In this document: positions 1-6,754 of the stretch, piece by piece
Numbering within the stretch: position 1 is the stretch's first letter
Layout: every line of letters starts with the position of its first letter
Source of the DNA: Bordetella parapertussis
Lineage (GTDB): Bacteria > Pseudomonadota > Gammaproteobacteria > Burkholderiales > Burkholderiaceae_C
Assembly (NCBI GenBank): GCA_945861305.1
Contig: CAMATW010000003.1
Location: 17,155-81,154 of the forward strand
Direction: 5' to 3'
Length of the DNA stretch: 64,000 bases
The notes under the pieces: model-generated
Told to the model about the DNA's origin: nothing
Database searches by the model: none
What the model saw: only the letters and a program-made list of their open reading frames with translations
Made by a program: the position numbers and the translations under genes

Positions 1-1
1 A

Positions 2-697
2 CGCCACACCACCATCAAGCCTGTTTGGGACTTATGGCGCTCGGTCACCCAAGATTTCTTTGCCACTGCCAGTTTTGCGGTGGTCGCCACCGACACCTAT
101 GCCCGAGGCATTCGCAAGTTTTTGGAAACCGAAATGGGCATGCCCTGCAAGTTTGCGGTGTCTCGGCTCCCAGGTCAAAAAACCGATAACGCAGCGGTGC
201 GCGAACTCATCCAGAAACAAATGCCGCTCATCCTGTTTGGCAGTTTCAACGAGCGCATGTATTTGGCTGAAGCCGGTAGCAGCGGCCCTATGAAAGCGTC
301 TTTCATCCCAGCCTCTTTCCCTGGCGCCATCATCCGTCGCCACACCGGCACACCGTTCATGGGCTATAGCGGCGCGACCTATTTGATCCAAGAGTGTTGC
401 AACTGCTTGTTTGACGCCTTGTTCCACATCTTGCCGCTGGGCACGGACATGGACAAAGTCGACGCCACCCTGGCGCGTGGCATCACCGGCGCCCAAAACA
501 ACACGCCTTGGGACGATGAGGCGCAGAACAAATTGCATGCTTTGGTGGCGGGCCAACCCGTGCTGGTACAAATTTCTGCGGCCAAACGCTTGCGCGATTT
601 GGCTGAGGGCAAGGCACGTGATAAAGGCGAGGAGCTGGTGACGCTCGCGCATGTGCAGCTAGCCGGTGCCGAGTTGGGCTTGGGAGAGCCCGCATGA
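2..697 (+). CDS. bchZ: Chlorophyllide a reductase subunit BchZ, C-terminal part (5' end outside window)
   Basis: This is the last 231 residues of a nitrogenase-like subunit; the reading frame is open from base 2, so the start lies to the left. BchXYZ reduces the C7-C8 bond of chlorophyllide a during bacteriochlorophyll a synthesis. The visible part has the late BchZ region with a [16 protein letters not shown] segment and a C-terminal PCP-reductase-like tail ([10 protein letters not shown]...), which BchY lacks. Its position directly before the puf genes matches the usual bchCXYZ-puf order. It ends in an ATGA overlap with a small downstream frame. Identity is based on remembered family features and context. 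Confidence 0.93.
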
Positions 698-825
698 CAC
701 AGTTTGCAAAACTACACGGTTCAGGCGCTTTTGCGCTGGAACCCTACCCCATGTCGTGGCATCTGCTGCGGCTACCTAGGTTGCGCAGGTTGGGCGCAGC
801 GTTGGCCTCACGGCCATTTTGTTGA
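694..825 (+). CDS. Possible 43-residue leader peptide between bchZ and pufB
   Basis: The ATG overlaps the bchZ stop (ATGA), and the TGA sits at the edge of the pufB ribosome binding site (GAAGGAG at 824-830), a layout that would couple bchZ, this frame and pufB in translation. The peptide is basic, ends ...SRPFC, and has no membrane helix. It occupies the place of pufQ in Rhodobacter but does not resemble remembered PufQ sequences. It could equally be untranslated leader, and the hairpin at 718-743 lies inside it. Confidence 0.25.
718..743 (+). promoter_or_regulatory. Hairpin in bchZ-pufB leader
   Basis: GGTTC (718-722) pairs with GAACC (739-743), and GCGC (725-728) with GCGC (733-736) around a TTTT loop, with a one- to two-base internal mismatch. 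No T-run follows, so it is not a terminator. A stem at the 5' side of pufB could be an mRNA processing or stability element, as known for puf messages in other purple bacteria; that role is inferred. Confidence 0.35.
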
Positions 826-836
826 AGGAGCATCGC

Positions 837-986
837 ATGTCAAACCATCCGAATTCCATATCCGGACTGACTGACGAAGAGGCTCAGGAGTTCCACCATT
901 ACTGGATTCAGGGATTAGTTGGCTTCACAGCTGTCGCTGTGGTGGCTCACATCCTGGTCTGGGCATGGCGGCCCTGGTTCGTCTAA
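837..986 (+). CDS. pufB: Light-harvesting 1 beta polypeptide PufB
   Basis: This 49-residue antenna apoprotein has a charged cytoplasmic N-terminus ([16 protein letters not shown]), one membrane helix and the conserved BChl-ligating histidine (H38 in [14 protein letters not shown]). The C-terminal WxWRPW motif is typical of LH1 beta. A strong GAAGGAG site lies six bases before the ATG. With PufA it forms the ring around the reaction centre. The next gene is not pufA but an unrecognised frame, which departs from the usual pufBA pairing. Confidence 0.96.
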
Positions 987-1018
987 GGCAGGTTTTTTTC
1001 ACCGAATGGAGCTAAACC

Positions 1019-1246
1019 ATGATTTCTCACACTTCTCAAGTCTCTTACAAACCTAACGGTTTGGACGACAAGCTAGCGTTTGTCCTGATCTTTGTACCTT
1101 GTTTTGTTGTACTTTTATCTTTTGCGGTTTTTGGCCAACTGGTTGGACTGCGATGGAAGAGTTGGCTGCCTGGCGCGGAGAACATGACCAATGTCATTGG
1201 GGGTGTGAAAGCATCGGTTTACACGTTTATGTCCCACATCATTTAG
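1019..1246 (+). CDS. Unrecognised 75-residue single-helix membrane protein inserted between pufB and pufA
   Basis: The ATG is preceded by a TGGAG-type ribosome binding site, and the stop overlaps the pufA ribosome binding site, so the frame is embedded in the puf message. Residues 1-18 are polar. Residues 19-43 form one hydrophobic helix ending in a GxxxG motif (G39-QLV-G43), followed by a basic patch (R45, K47), WLPGAEN and an amphipathic C-terminus (GGVKASVYTFMSHII). The helix has no histidine, so it cannot ligate BChl as the alpha and beta polypeptides do. The general plan (polar N-terminus, one helix with GxxxG, short C-terminal helix) recalls PufX of Rhodobacter, which opens the LH1 ring for quinone. 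No clear sequence identity to PufX is evident, and the function is unknown. Confidence 0.8.
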   Translation: MISHTSQVSYKPNGLDDKLAFVLIFVPCFVVLLSFAVFGQLVGLRWKSWLPGAENMTNVIGGVKASVYTFMSHII

Positions 1247-1256
1247 GAGAACCATT

Positions 1257-1457
1257 ATGTGGAGAGTTTGGAGACTTTATGACCCATTGCGTGCAATGGT
1301 CGTGCAAGGCATTTTTCTGTTTGGCTTGGCAGCGATGATTCACCTCATTTTGCTAAGTACCAATAAATTCAACTGGCTAGACGGCGCAAAGAAACCCGCT
1401 TCAGCATCGGCGCAAAACTCGCCTATGCCTGCAGCAGTTCCTGCAGCGAAGTCCTGA
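1257..1457 (+). CDS. pufA: Light-harvesting 1 alpha polypeptide PufA
   Basis: This 66-residue LH1 alpha chain starts with the diagnostic MWRVWRLYDPLRAM motif. It has one membrane helix with the BChl-ligating H29 (AAMIHLILLSTNKFNWLDG) and a longer than usual Ala/Pro/Ser-rich C-terminal tail (about residues 45-66). TAGGAG lies seven bases before the ATG. It pairs with PufB in the core antenna. The intergenic space to pufL holds tandem hairpins that could set its higher expression relative to pufLMC. Confidence 0.96.
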   Translation: MWRVWRLYDPLRAMVVQGIFLFGLAAMIHLILLSTNKFNWLDGAKKPASASAQNSPMPAAVPAAKS

Positions 1458-1462
1458 AAGTT

Positions 1463-1515
1463 GGCAGTACCGCAGGTGCTGCCAGTTCTGTAAAGAACTG
1501 CAGCATCTGCATTTT
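1463..1515 (+). terminator. Tandem hairpins between pufA and pufL (attenuator / mRNA stability element)
   Basis: Three adjacent stems are visible. The first is 1463-1471 with 1475-1483 (nine pairs, one G-T, three-base loop). The second is 1484-1489 with 1494-1499 (AGTTCT/AGAACT, GTAA loop). The third, a short GCAG/CTGC stem at 1500-1510, is followed by five T. In Rhodobacter, hairpins at this place stabilise the pufBA message over pufLM; partial termination or 3'-end protection is inferred here. Confidence 0.7.
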
Positions 1516-1559
1516 TAAAATTTTCCTCTTATCAACACTTGCAGCAGGAGGGCTACATC

Positions 1560-2393
1560 ATGGCCATGCTCAGCTTTGAAAAAAAATACCGAGTGCGCGG
1601 CGGAACGCTGCTAGCAGGTGACCTGTTCGATTTTTGGATCGGTCCGTTTTATGTCGGTTTCTTTGGCGTCACGACCATCTTCTTCGCTTTTCTTGGTACA
1701 GCCATGATTTTGTGGGGAGCGGCTCTTGGCCCCACTTGGAATTTATGGCAAATCAGTATTGCCCCCCCCGATCTGTCTTATGGTTTGCGTTTCGCACCTT
1801 TGCAAGAAGGCGGGCTGTGGCAAATCATCACCGTTTGTGCCCTTGGCGCTTTCGTTTCATGGCTGTTGCGCGAGGTTGAAATATGCCGCAAACTGGGCAT
1901 GGGCTTTCATGTTCCCTTTATGTTTGGTGTGGCCATATTCGCTTACTTCACCCTCAATGTGATTCGACCTGTTTTGATGGGCGGCTGGGGGCATGGTTTC
2001 CCTTACGGTATTTACAGCCACCTCGATTGGGTGTCCAACGTGGGTTATCAATACCTGCATTTTCACTACAATCCCGCACACATGCTTGCGGTGAGTTTTT
2101 TCTTTGCCACCACCTTGGCTTTGTCCTTGCACGGTGCTTTGATTTTGTCTGCCACCAACCCCGGCTCTGGCCAAGTGGTTAAGACGCCTGAGCATGAAGA
2201 CACGTTCTTTCGCGACATCATTGGTTACTCCATCGGCACTTTAGGTATTCACCGTTTGGGCGTGTTTTTTTCCCTGGCCGCGGTGTTGTTCAGCGCCTTG
2301 TGCATTGTCATCAGCGGACCCTTCTGGAGTCGCGGTTGGCCCGAATGGTGGGGCTGGTGGTTGAACCTGCCCATCTGGTCTCAGTGGCCTTAA
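1560..2393 (+). CDS. pufL: Photosynthetic reaction centre L subunit
   Basis: This 277-residue, five-helix integral membrane subunit carries half of the BChl/bacteriopheophytin/quinone cofactors. The start [15 protein letters not shown] is the family's N-terminus and has a good AGGAGG upstream; an upstream in-frame codon would add seven non-conserved residues and place that site inside the gene. Conserved blocks include the HVPFMFG and [16 protein letters not shown] regions, and [15 protein letters not shown] and SLHG with the histidines that ligate BChl and the non-haem iron. It is followed by pufM 21 bases later. Confidence 0.97.
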
Positions 2394-2414
2394 TTAAAGA
2401 CGAGGAACACAATC

Positions 2415-3392
2415 ATGGCTGACTATCTGAATCTTTTCACCACTGTACAGGCCAGCGGGCCTGTGCATAACGGCGTGGCCTTAGGCCCAGGCAACAGCCC
2501 ACGCACCGGGCAACCCGGTATTTCTTGGCTTTTGGGCAAACTCGGTAATGCGCAAATCGGGCCCATTTACTTGGGCGGTTTGGGCTTGGCGTCTTTGATC
2601 TGCGGCTTGATTGCCTTCAACATCATTGGTATGAACATGCTGGCATCGGTGAACTACGACCCGATCCAGTTTGTGCGCCAGTTGTTCTGGTTGGCGCTAG
2701 AGCCGCCACCCCCGCAGTACGGCTTGTCATGGCCGCCCTTGAACCAAGGCGGCTGGTTCCTCATTTGCGGTATTTTCTTAAGCGCTTCTGTGTTGCTGTG
2801 GTGGGTGCGAATTTACCGCCGCGCCATACAACTGGGCTTAGGTACGCATGTGGCTTGGGCTTTTGCCGCTGCTTTATGGCTGATGTTTGTCTTGGGCTTC
2901 TTTCGCCCCATCTTGATGGGCTCTTGGGGCGAGGCCGTGCCTTATGGCATCTTCCCGCACCTCGATTGGACGGCTGCCTTGTCCATTCGCTACGGCAATC
3001 TCTTTTACAACCCCTTTCATGCCTTGAGCATTGTGTTCTTGTACGGCTCTGTGCTGCTGTTTGCGATGCACGGTGCCACCATCTTGGCCGTCACCCGTTA
3101 TGGGGGAGAACGTGAAATTGAACAAATTGTCGACCGCGGTACCGCGTCGGAACGTGCAGGCCTGTTTTGGCGTTGGACCATGGGCTTTAACGCCTCCATG
3201 GAATCCATTCACCGCTGGGCTTGGTGGTTTGCGGTTTTGTGTCCCATCACTGGCGGCATCGGTATCTTGCTGACGGGCACCGTGGTGGACAACTGGTATT
3301 TGTGGGCCATCAAGCATGGTGTTGCACCAGCTTACCCGAATGTGTTTCCGCTGGTGGTCGATCCAGCCCTGAGTTTGGGAGTCAAACCATGA
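2415..3392 (+). CDS. pufM: Photosynthetic reaction centre M subunit
   Basis: This 325-residue, five-helix subunit is paired with PufL. It shows the M-type blocks [34 protein letters not shown], the FAMHG iron-ligand histidine and a second histidine in SIHRWAWW. The C-terminus is a little longer than in Rhodobacter and reaches into the periplasm, as is usual for reaction centres that bind PufC. Its stop overlaps the pufC start (ATGA), so the two are translationally coupled. Confidence 0.97.
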
Positions 3393-4438
3393 AATCCCTG
3401 TATTTTTTACGACGCTTGGCGGTCTACGCTGCTGGCCTGTCTGCGGTATTGTTGCTCACCGCCTGTGAGCGACCTTTTCAAGACAGCGTGCAACACGGCT
3501 ACCGTGGAACCGGCATGGTGCAGGTCTACAACCCGCGCATGTTGGCGGTCAAAACCGAGGCCAACCAAGTACCGGTGGCCTTGCCTGCAGCCTCAGGTGA
3601 GGGTCCCAAAGCAGGTGAAGCTTATAAAAATGTCAAGGTCTTGGGCGACTTGAGCGTGGCACAGTTCAACCGTCTCATGGTCTCCATGACTGCATGGGTG
3701 TCGCCCAACGATGGGGGCTGCGTCTACTGCCATAACCCCGCCAATTTTGCTGACGACGAGAAATACACCAAGGTGGTGGCGCGGCGCATGTTGCAGATGA
3801 CCCAAGCCATCAACAGCGAATGGAAGCCCCACGTCGCGGAAACAGGCGTGACTTGCTACACCTGTCACCGTGGTCAACCGGTTCCCAGCGAGATTTGGTT
3901 CACGGCCAACCACCAGCCCTACGGTTCTAACTTCATGGGTGACAAAGCAGGACAAAACGAGCCAGCCAGGGTGGTGAATTTGTCTTCTTTGCCCAATGAC
4001 CCGTTCACACCATTTTTGCTCGGCGATCTCAACATTCGCGTGAATGGCCCCACTGCATTACCCACAGGTAACCGTCAATCCACCAAGCAAGCCGAGTGGA
4101 CTTATGGTTTGATGACGCATATGTCAGAGTCCTTGGGTGTGAATTGCACGTATTGCCACAATTCGCGCTCCTTCCAGAGTTGGGAAAACAGCCCGCCGCA
4201 ACGTGCAACCGCATGGCACGGCATACGCATGGCGCGGGGACTTAACACCGGCTATATGGAGCCGCTGACAGCGACCTTCCCCGAGCATCGCAAGGGCGAG
4301 TTAGGCGATGTTGCCAAAATCAACTGCGGCACTTGCCACCAAGGTGCGTACAAGCCTCTGAATGGCGCATCCATGCTCAAAGACTACCCCGAGCTGGCAG
4401 CGCCATCAAGCAAAGCTGCACAAGTGGCTGGCAATTAA
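3389..4438 (+). CDS. pufC: Tetrahaem cytochrome c subunit of the reaction centre
   Basis: This 349-residue lipoprotein re-reduces the photo-oxidised special pair from the periplasmic side. It has an N-terminal signal with a lipobox (LLLTAC, Cys26) and four CxxCH haem sites at about residues 111 (CVYCH), 156 (CYTCH), 253 (CTYCH) and 313 (CGTCH). The start was chosen at [12 protein letters not shown] because it overlaps the pufM stop and gives the proper signal; a longer in-frame extension lies inside pufM. The HiPIP at 53131 is the likely soluble donor. Confidence 0.97.
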
Positions 4439-4479
4439 AACCGCGCCGCAGCAGCTAACCCCAGCAACATGAGACACAC

Positions 4480-5226
4480 ATGGTCAACCAAGATCCCGTG
4501 TCTCTTGCTGTCTCGGGGGTGGTTGTGGTTATCTTGGTGGATTACTTAAGGGCCCACCAAGGCTGGGGTTGGCTTCGATTGGTTCAAGGCGCATCTGCGT
4601 TCAAAGAGACACCAGGGTTACTTTTCACCAAAGTCATGGGCAGTGGCCACCAAGGTGGCTTTAGCTTGCGACCCAGTGCTTCACACCAAGGTTTAATTTG
4701 TGTCTTTGACCACGCAGACCATGCAGACCAATTTTTAGCAGGCCCTTGGCTTACCGCTTACCAAGAGCGAGCCAAGCAATGCCAAGCCAGTTTGTTGGCC
4801 ATCACATCTTGCAAAGGCGCATGGGATGGTCGTGCTTTCGATGTCACGCCTGACGACAAGCTGGGTCACTATGCTTTTGAGCCACGTACCCCTGCGATGG
4901 CCGCCATCACCAGAGCCAGCATTCGCCCTGCCAAAGCGGTGGCGTTTTGGCGCTATGCACCAGCGGCTCAGGCTGATTTAAGTCAGGCGCCAGGATGCTC
5001 TGTGGCCATGGGCTTAGGTGAAGCGCCACTGGTTCGCCAATGCACTTTTAGTGTGTGGCGTGACACCCAAGCCATGCTTGACTACGCCCACACCGGTGCC
5101 CACCAGCAGGCCATTGCCGCGGCTTACAAAAACGACTTTTTCTCCGAATCCATGTTCGTGCGCATGCGACTGTTGCGCACGGTGGGTGAATGGGCCATGC
5201 CGCAAGAGGTGGTGGCGCATGGCTGA
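4480..5226 (+). CDS. crtA: Spheroidene monooxygenase CrtA
   Basis: The 248-residue protein has the CrtA layout: a short hydrophobic N-terminal strand (VVVVILVDYL), then the conserved LLFTKVMGSGHQGGFS, DVTP...RTPAMAAITRASIRP and GLGEAPLVRQCTFSVW blocks, and a DFFSESMFVRMR C-terminus. It inserts the keto group at C2 of spheroidene, giving spheroidenone under oxygen. It starts 41 bases after pufC with no obvious promoter or PpsR box between, so it is probably part of the puf transcript. It overlaps crtD by eight bases. Confidence 0.9.
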   Translation: MVNQDPVSLAVSGVVVVILVDYLRAHQGWGWLRLVQGASAFKETPGLLFTKVMGSGHQGGFSLRPSASHQGLICVFDHADHADQFLAGPWLTAYQERAKQCQASLLAITSCKGAWDGRAFDVTPDDKLGHYAFEPRTPAMAAITRASIRPAKAVAFWRYAPAAQADLSQAPGCSVAMGLGEAPLVRQCTFSVWRDTQAMLDYAHTGAHQQAIAAAYKNDFFSESMFVRMRLLRTVGEWAMPQEVVAHG

Positions 5227-6754
5227 GCACAAAGTGGTCGTGGTGGGCGCTGGCATGGCAGGCTTGGTCAGCGCATTGCAACTGGCAGATCAGGGTTTGT
5301 CGGTGACTGTCGTTGACAAGGCCGAACAAGTTGGCGGAAAAATGCGCCAACTCATGCCCAATGGGGTTGCTGTGGACAGTGGCCCCACGGTGTTCACCAT
5401 GCGTTGGGTGTTTGACCAGATCATGGCCTCGGTAGGCACACGCTTGGAAAGCGAATTAACAGTCCAGCGCTTGGATGTGTTGGCACGTCACTTTTGGGAG
5501 GATGGTTCCCAACTCGATTTGTACGCAGATCCGCAAAGGTCGGTGGATGCAGTGGCGCGTTTTGCGGGTCCTGAGCAGGCCAAGCGTTTCGTGACTTTTT
5601 GCAAAACCACCCGTGCGGTCTATGACGCGCTAGAAGGGCCTTTCATCCGTTCACCATCGCCCACCATGGCGCAGATGATGTCGGGACTGGGGCCGCGTGG
5701 TTTGGCCACTTTGGCTTCTGTGGGACCCATGCGCAGCCTCTGGGAAAGTTTGGGCAAGCATTTCACCGATCCCCGCATGCGTCAACTGTTTGCCCGCTAC
5801 GCCACATATTGCGGTTCATCGCCATGGCAGGCACCTGCCACCTTGATGTTGATTGCCCAAGTAGAGATGGACGGCGTGTGGGCGGTGCAAGGGGGCATGC
5901 ATGCACTGGCGCAATGCCTGCAGCGTTTAGGCCAAGCCAGAGGTGTGCGTTTCATCTTGGGCCAAGAATGCGAACGCATAGAACTGTCGCAAGGTCGTGT
6001 CTCGGGTGTACGCATGCAAAGTGGCGACAGCTTGCAAGCAGACAGTGTTATTTTCAATGGCGACATTGCGGCCTTGCGCCAAGGCTTGCTTGGCCCTGGT
6101 ATGAAAGCGGCCGTGGCGGGTAAAAAACAAGCTCGCTCACTGTCTGCCGTTACTTGGTCTATGCACACGGCCACCTCGGGTGTGGCCTTGGACCGGCACA
6201 ATGTTTTTTTCAGATCTGATTACAAACAAGAATTCGAGGCCATTTTTCACCAAGCGCGGTTGCCGTCGCAACCCACGGTCTATGTTTGTGCCCAAGACCG
6301 TGGTACCGGCGAAGCAGTCAATGGGGCTGAACGCTTGCTGTGTTTGGTCAATGCGCCTGCCAATGGCGATAAGCGCAGTTTCACCCCCCAAGAATTGACC
6401 GATTGCACCGCCAGCAGCCAAGACCTGATGGCGCGTTGTGGCTTGTCATTACAGTTGGAGCCTTCTTCATCATGCATTCGCACCACACCTCAGGACTTTC
6501 ACCAACTGTTTCCAGCCACGGGCGGAGCCTTATATGGCCAAGCCACACATGGATGGATGGCGGCGTTCGCCCGTTCGAACGCCAAAGCCCAAGTGCCGGG
6601 TCTGTACTTGGCGGGGGGCAGCGTGCATCCGGGACCGGGGGTCCCAATGGCGGCTATGTCGGGCCAACTGGCGGCCGCGGCGCTGATGGGCAACCTCGGT
6701 TTGACCAAGTTGTCCAAAGCGGGGGCTACCTCTGGTGGTACCTTGACGCACTAA
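5219..6754 (+). CDS. crtD: Hydroxyneurosporene/methoxyneurosporene desaturase CrtD
   Basis: The 511-residue FAD amine-oxidase-fold desaturase has the dinucleotide motif VVVGAGMAGLVSALQLADQG at the N-terminus and the C-terminal LYLAGGSVHPGPGVPMAAMSG signature of the CrtI/CrtD family. The CrtA-CrtD-CrtC context assigns it to the 3,4-desaturation step of the spheroidene branch rather than phytoene desaturation; crtI is present separately at 28031. The ATG at 5219 overlaps crtA and begins the conserved FAD strand. Its 3' end overlaps the start of crtC out of frame. Confidence 0.92.
   Translation: MAEHKVVVVGAGMAGLVSALQLADQGLSVTVVDKAEQVGGKMRQLMPNGVAVDSGPTVFTMRWVFDQIMASVGTRLESELTVQRLDVLARHFWEDGSQLDLYADPQRSVDAVARFAGPEQAKRFVTFCKTTRAVYDALEGPFIRSPSPTMAQMMSGLGPRGLATLASVGPMRSLWESLGKHFTDPRMRQLFARYATYCGSSPWQAPATLMLIAQVEMDGVWAVQGGMHALAQCLQRLGQARGVRFILGQECERIELSQGRVSGVRMQSGDSLQADSVIFNGDIAALRQGLLGPGMKAAVAGKKQARSLSAVTWSMHTATSGVALDRHNVFFRSDYKQEFEAIFHQARLPSQPTVYVCAQDRGTGEAVNGAERLLCLVNAPANGDKRSFTPQELTDCTASSQDLMARCGLSLQLEPSSSCIRTTPQDFHQLFPATGGALYGQATHGWMAAFARSNAKAQVPGLYLAGGSVHPGPGVPMAAMSGQLAAAALMGNLGLTKLSKAGATSGGTLTH

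Follow-up and report, generated by a model that had tools for sequence, protein, structure and literature searches.

A conserved gene between pufB and pufA encodes a diverged LH1 beta homologue without the ligand histidine

Extra single-helix proteins have been described both from puf operons and beside the antenna subunits. PufX, whose gene follows pufLM, is one such extra helix encoded in the puf operon, and PufQ (PF05398) is a small single-helix protein encoded between bchZ and pufB. The available part of PMC9640540 describes the LH1 gamma chain of Blastochloris and the gamma-like chains of Rhodopila as extra single helices beside beta, the Rhodopila chains running antiparallel to it. PufB itself can carry a long C-terminal tail, as in the PDB chains 8z81_B, 7xxf_B and 9m8m_B. 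In Rubrivivax gelatinosus, two ORFs of unknown function, ORF1 and ORF2, are mentioned in PMC12817894 (citing Nagashima 1994). According to the accessible portion of that article, ORF2 lacks the alpha His, shares 14.5%, 10.1% and 14.5% identity with three PufA2 sequences and was not the source of pufA2; its section 8 compares ORF2 with alpha and not with beta. ORF74 of Roseateles depolymerans is co-transcribed with pufB and pufA on a major 1-kb transcript, and the transcript remaining in a sigma-factor mutant amounts to 2.34% for ORF74, 0.71% for pufA and 1.09% for pufB (PMC10037100, in the excerpt available).

The locus studied here lies at the start of a window of 64,000 nucleotides, the whole stretch of DNA that was analysed. 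Positions 1-4438 carry, all on the forward strand, the end of bchZ followed by pufB, the gene in question, pufA, pufL, pufM and pufC (Table 1); we use X as a label for the 75-aa product of that gene. The initial annotation had described a well-initiated 75-residue frame between the two antenna genes, and this description holds, with an ATG preceded by GGAG and with flanking genes recognised by NF040862 and NF040861. The AGGAGA of pufA (1245-1250) shares bases with the TAG stop of X. ORF74 has the same size as X, and its locus tag, in the excerpt of PMC10037100, falls between the tags of the two antenna genes; judging from place and size, it is most probably X. On the same grounds we infer that ORF2 of R. 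gelatinosus is X, and two R. gelatinosus strains other than IL144 (L058 and L060) encode X between pufB and pufA. The X-type gene has thus already been published, as an ORF to which no function was assigned. In the literature covered, to which few subscription papers belonged, we found no account of a beta-derived family at this place and no structure or mutant of X.

Table 1. Features of the puf region in the window
Feature	Position	Strand	Remarks
ORF1, short frame (43 aa) at the pufQ position	694..825	+	start codon shares bases with the bchZ stop (ATGA)
pufB, LH1 beta with AxxxH, short and without a tail	837..986	+	NF040862
GGAG, likely ribosome binding site of X	1008..1011	+	7 nt 5' of the X ATG
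X (ORF2/ORF74-type gene)	1019..1246	+	ATG start, 75 aa; homologous to LH1 beta, lacks the ligand His, carries a C-terminal tail
Gln40 codon (CAA) of X	1136..1138	+	place of the beta BChl-ligand His according to alignments; Ala36 = -4, Trp49 = +9
C-terminal tail of X (Trp49 onward)	1163..1243	+	resembles the tail of long-tailed PufB in other operons
pufA, LH1 alpha	1257..1457	+	NF040861
pufL	1560..2393	+	PF00124
pufM	2415..3392	+	PF00124
pufC, reaction-centre cytochrome subunit	3383..4438	+	PF02276

The short frame upstream of pufB, ORF1, showed no resemblance to X. Among 79 X operons (L045 and L073 were skipped), the four bases at the start of ORF1 are either ATGA or GTGA, with the single exception of L050 (CTGA), and the peptide is poorly conserved across L001-L080. 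ORF1 may act as a coupling leader for pufB. An Rfam search of window positions 1-6000 gave no match at E ≤ 1.

A search with the X protein recovered 63 homologues at E ≤ 1, and relatives of X were located in 173 stretches of genome contigs, the best 80 of which were examined. The X profile matched 972 proteins at E ≤ 1, a figure that probably includes true PufB beyond the 120 proteins listed. In the best 80 of the 173 loci, pufA lies downstream in every case (incomplete in L018) and pufB upstream in 79; the remaining contig, L045, begins inside the operon. Taking the window together with these 80 loci, X is 69-77 aa long, starts with ATG in 80 of 81 sequences and is separated from pufB by 17-48 nt. 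In three groups, comprising 21, 66 and 28 pairs, the dN/dS of X was 0.165, 0.160 and 0.278, respectively, and X is under purifying selection. Homologues, conserved operon place and dN/dS of 0.16-0.28 together indicate that the frame is not a product of chance. X is the least conserved of the five proteins compared, with a mean amino-acid identity, calculated over a third of the loci, of 0.53, against 0.79 for PufB, 0.76 for PufA, 0.83 for PufL and 0.75 for PufM. Its close relatives bear the names of Comamonadaceae, other Burkholderiales MAGs and some Limnohabitans, with R. gelatinosus among them; from these record names, some of them apparently poor, the host group would be the Burkholderiales. 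The names of L001 (Bordetella parapertussis), L004 (Rickettsia typhi) and L025 (Candidatus Fonsibacter) are ill-suited to Burkholderiales puf operons, and these are probably misnamed or mixed MAGs. A plasmid search returned distant puf operons only, four of which were taken for comparison.

Searched alone against the PDB, X gave nine matches at E ≤ 10, all of them antenna chains (best 8z81_B, E 7.5e-6), and the X family profile gave 17 (best 4.6e-10), all named as antenna (beta, alpha/beta or light-harvesting protein). Profile-profile alignment by hhalign yielded E-values of 1.5e-13 for X and beta, 1.3e-3 for X and alpha (probability 19%) and 1.2e-3 for X and PufQ, the alpha and PufQ profiles serving as background for other single helices. 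Because the PDB matches are all antenna chains and the X-beta value falls far below those for alpha and PufQ, X is a diverged LH1 beta homologue. The initial annotation had called the protein unknown and had seen no clear homology; both statements now give way to that of a divergent antenna protein. An alpha-derived origin is rejected on the X-alpha value, and X as a relocated PufQ is rejected, as regards sequence, on an X-PufQ score no better than the alpha baseline. Searches of Pfam and NCBIfam with the X of the window, in which HMMER filters discard most weak matches, gave nothing at E ≤ 10, PF00556 and NF040862 included; with NF040862, the X of L058 scored 18.3 bits against a cut-off of 61 and that of L080 gave no match. 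Foldseek returned no PDB chain for a low-confidence model of X. PDB searches with PufB and PufA of R. gelatinosus gave no near-identical chain, the best matches (listed without their organisms) scoring 64.9 and 67.7 bits.

The His of the AxxxH motif in LH1 beta holds BChl, and the residues Ala(-4) and Trp(+9) relative to it belong to the same BChl site. When X is aligned on beta, the ligand position is occupied by Gln in 75 of 81 sequences, by T in three, by S in two and by A in one, and never by His (0/81); kept around it are Ala(-4) in 81/81, Gly(+3) in 80/81 and Trp(+9) in 78/81. A second set of 124 proteins, 121 of them placeable and three skipped, has Gln at this position in 116 and S, E, L, R and P once each. 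The initial statement that X has no histidine for BChl stands for the ligand position but not for the rest of the protein, as the X of the window carries His4 and His73, and 45 of the 81 sequences have a His somewhere within -25 to +8 of the ligand position. In 80 of the 81 X sequences the final six residues include a His (His73 in the window), and many homologues also have one just ahead of the first Trp past the helix, around +5. The conserved residues Phe25, Phe29, Ala36, Gln40, Gly43 and Trp46 cluster largely on a single face of the helix, an arrangement suggestive of tight packing. As for the fold, a single helix with a GxxxG end had been described, and the predicted helix (residues 14-42 in a low-confidence AlphaFold model, mean pLDDT 66) with G39-x-x-x-G43 agrees with this; the amphipathic C-terminus described along with it is weak, its moment of 0.31 being attained by 351 of 5000 shuffles.

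Long-tailed PufB resembles X in the homologous helix, in Ala(-4) and Trp(+9), in its C-terminal tail and in its place just ahead of pufA. X differs from it in lacking the ligand His and, in the window, the beta-type 'EFH', and in standing beside a normal PufB. We surveyed puf operons for the X gene over the order of R. gelatinosus, sampling 399 genomes, 48 of which have reaction-centre genes; 46 of these 48 gave some match to the X profile at E ≤ 0.01. X is present in 38 of the 46 informative operons, five have a long-tailed PufB without X, and three (G073, G193 and G224) have only PufB, as judged by the X profile, together with a gene 5' of pufB that belongs to a family defined here as U, encoded between bchZ and pufB, that is, at the pufQ position. 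Among the 38, all 30 that were checked read pufB-X-pufA, as do five more (L260, L261, L263-L265); the others are G056, with an intermediate form after pufB near the contig end, and G361 and G145, assigned by coordinates. In G151 and G305 the puf stretch ends at a contig edge, and both stand outside the 46 informative operons. Five genomes taken for X carriers by their profile match (G288, G033, G258, G184 and G170) turned out on inspection to have a long-tailed PufB and were dropped from the X count.

The PufB of L250-L254 has a C-terminal tail of 27-28 residues, and no X, U or PufQ was found alongside it. The five long-tailed PufB of the order keep the ligand His and have tails such as WLPGSGGYTSMIDGVKAAVNSFMPYVFMA, to be compared with the X tail of R. 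gelatinosus, WLPGAEGVKSIFGGVKAAVYTFMSHLL. Over 25 ungapped columns, X and four long-tailed PufB of the order are 40% identical on average (81 by 4), against 19% for X and 11 other long beta tails, a figure lowered by insertions in some of the latter, and 7% for shuffled tails. The X tail is strongly conserved. The PufB beside X ends one or two residues past WRPW in 79 of 80 operons (the window and 79 loci; the eightieth is an odd frame), and it is short in all 30 further X operons. The distance from X to pufA is 9-12 nt in 72 of 84 loci and that from long-tailed pufB to pufA 10-19 nt in 22 of 22, counts that leave out L045 (no pufB) and seven loci without a clear pufA start, six with X and one, L081, without. 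The premise that the two LH1 antenna genes are normally adjacent proved sound: the pufB-pufA gap is 10-89 nt in 42 loci without X, too short for a gene of its size. Where PufB is short and X is absent, the gap is 69-86 nt in L213, L216, L223, L243-L245 and L082, 41 nt in L214 and 89 nt in L220; in pufQ operons with a short PufB it is 12-16 nt. The spacer 3' of short pufB, inspected in 12 loci, showed no remnant of a tail.

In a PufM tree (a quick tree with no bootstrap, from which L039, having no pufM, was left out), the 38 X operons included and two cut contigs come together in a single group with an SH-aLRT of 92. Next to it stand the three U operons of the order and four of its five long-tailed ones; the fifth, L254, is placed outside, without resolution. 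In a tree of the short proteins, built from 86 chosen rows and 78 columns and with a bootstrap that had not settled, the short PufB body and the order's long-tailed PufB do not come together. As to the nearest kin of X, this tree is compatible with each of four groupings (AU p 0.37-0.50): X+U (0.476), X+U+I (0.504), X+I (0.374) and X+long-tailed beta (0.455), where I stands for the intermediate proteins P0154, P0185 and P0197. Because five X-less operons of the order have one long-tailed, His-bearing PufB, and the PufB next to X has no tail, X resembles what a long-tailed beta would become on losing the ligand and keeping the tail. Our reading is a probable single origin of X in the gene of such a beta. 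Two results count against a simple split into X and short PufB: the body of the latter stands apart from long-tailed PufB, and none of the four groupings of X is rejected.

The explanation of X that we favour, with confidence about evenly balanced between acceptance and doubt, is that it serves as an auxiliary pseudo-beta subunit of the RC-LH1 core. The basis for this is homology, position, tail similarity, the single group in the PufM tree and purifying selection; the further steps are conjecture. X, a beta homologue, would have lost the BChl-ligating His (now mostly Gln) while retaining its membrane-spanning helix together with Ala(-4), Trp(+9) and a tail; the tail would derive from an ancestral long-tailed beta and would be periplasmic if X is oriented like beta. 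The neighbouring PufB retains the His and has no tail. Made at antenna time with alpha and beta, presumably from the same abundant puf mRNA, X would pack on alpha or beta via its conserved small-residue face and supply the tail, and it would probably add no normal BChl site because it is without the ligand His. A few copies of X per ring may then create a pigment-poor place easing quinone passage, or may join the ring to the cytochrome side. The proposed placement as an extra single helix beside beta is like that of the gamma and gamma-like chains. An extra RC-LH1 subunit had been suggested for this frame from the outset; X is a real extra single-helix gene of the antenna operon, and a part in RC-LH1 is plausible. 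Counting against the pseudo-beta subunit are the divergence of X, much faster than that of the ring subunits (mean identity 0.53 vs 0.79 for PufB), the ligand place, which is not strictly Gln, and the existence of several operons without long tail, X, U and PufQ, so that the tail is dispensable for phototrophs generally.

The main rival, possible but somewhat unlikely in our estimation, is that X acts as an assembly or pigment-supply factor like PufQ or U: it would stay outside the mature complex, its beta-like helix presenting nascent alpha/beta or BChl, or steering porphyrin flux during antenna building. This view gains from U, the members of which share the motif FRLIF...RLLP...SIFGEAKAAA..F.PFAFM; some of them start beta-like (SGFADQEARQFH...). 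The U profile matched 142 proteins at E ≤ 1, and among the 120 listed, nine score higher with the X profile. By hhalign, U resembles X with E 2.9e-16 and beta with E 3.0e-14; X shares profile homology with U, but its place is past pufB. None of the U proteins tried exceeded a Pfam or NCBIfam cut-off, the U of L217 remaining below threshold for PufQ (15.4 vs 22.1 bits) and for pufB (18.8 vs 61). An alignment of U with PufQ spans both proteins entirely (E 1.2e-4, probability 55%); this would also speak for the assembly factor, and their kinship is only suggestive. X and U form separate groups in the short-protein tree (100/97 and 100/100), a joint group not being rejected by the tests. These separate groups weaken the view of X as a mere U gene relocated beyond pufB, though the AU tests reject no grouping.

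The distribution of these genes bears on the same rival. U lies between bchZ and pufB in L212, L214, L217, L219, L224, L239, L243 and others. The 41 loci outside the X set (34 whole puf stretches from genomes, three cut or partial and four from plasmids) comprise 18 with U (one, L215, weak), 10 with PufQ, 10 with neither, one intermediate and two cut, and U and PufQ never occur together. Neither was seen in the stretch covered of any of the 80 X loci (best 80 of 173), an exclusivity which favours a shared role of X, U and PufQ but may be a lineage effect, given the 10 loci with neither. PF05398 exceeds its cut-off in none of the 48 reaction-centre-bearing genomes of the order, whose one match is below cut-off and inside an 808-aa frame, against 10 of 32 others. 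These 32 come from a class sample (7 of 369 positive for reaction-centre genes) and a phylum sample (31 of 398) with six already seen removed, and X was found between pufB and pufA in none of 31 of them (the 32nd, G1109, looks by its scores like a near-copy of G1108). In half of the frames (9 of 18 for U, 5 of 10 for pufQ) an ATG on the bchZ stop could serve as the start, a further point for the assembly factor, as is the fast divergence of X. Against it, X lies inside pufBA rather than at the pufQ position and, if identical with ORF74, is on the abundant antenna transcript described in the available excerpt of PMC10037100; moreover, X keeps Ala(-4) and Trp(+9). PufQ is, like X, a small single-helix protein of the puf operon, but no profile match links the two, their similarity being no better than that of X and alpha. 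The pseudo-beta subunit is preferred because X would be made with the antenna, would sit beside alpha/beta without adding an ordinary BChl and would pack tightly.

Decidedly unlikely is a beta variant that still binds pigment, with Gln40 (AxxxQ) holding the BChl magnesium. The predominance of Gln at this position in both protein sets, together with the near-invariant Ala(-4) and Trp(+9), would accord with such a role, but T, S or A replaces Gln in six of 81 sequences, and S, E, L, R and P each do so once in the second set. We think it very unlikely that X is a ring opener like PufX, present in one copy per reaction centre, breaking the LH1 ring and making a quinone gate, a likeness that the initial annotation had drawn. 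A single helix with GxxxG, the missing ligand His and the status of X as an extra puf-operon gene would be in keeping with it, but sequence lends it no support: PF11511 gave no match to the X of the window at E ≤ 10, and no chain named PufX, protein W or gamma is among the 17 PDB matches of the X profile. With these matches all antenna by name, homology of X to PufX or gamma was rejected. In addition, X lies between the antenna genes, not after pufLM, and the operon of the window keeps pufC. That X is a decaying, dispensable duplicate is hardly credible and already disfavoured, for although it changes faster than PufB, 38 of the order's 46 informative operons have it, its dN/dS is well under 1 and its tail is strongly conserved.

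Returning to the pseudo-beta subunit, a wider proposal can be attached to it, which is speculative and in our judgement unlikely. The betaproteobacterial core antenna would combine a normal PufB with a Gln-type pseudo-beta pairing with alpha, so that certain fixed positions of the ring would hold either a BChl ligated by Gln or no pigment at all, with the tail provided in trans, and beta would have given rise at least once, perhaps twice (X, U and possibly PufQ), to non-antenna puf proteins. The X-type gene is conserved in the model phototroph R. gelatinosus and in many lake and pond bacteria; it was noticed in 1994 and has no function in the literature covered. Its kinship with beta makes the role of X testable through ring membership, copy number, pigment, and ring closure or quinone flow. 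U is a second conserved gene without a name; located at the pufQ position in many other purple bacteria, it encodes a small membrane protein related to beta.
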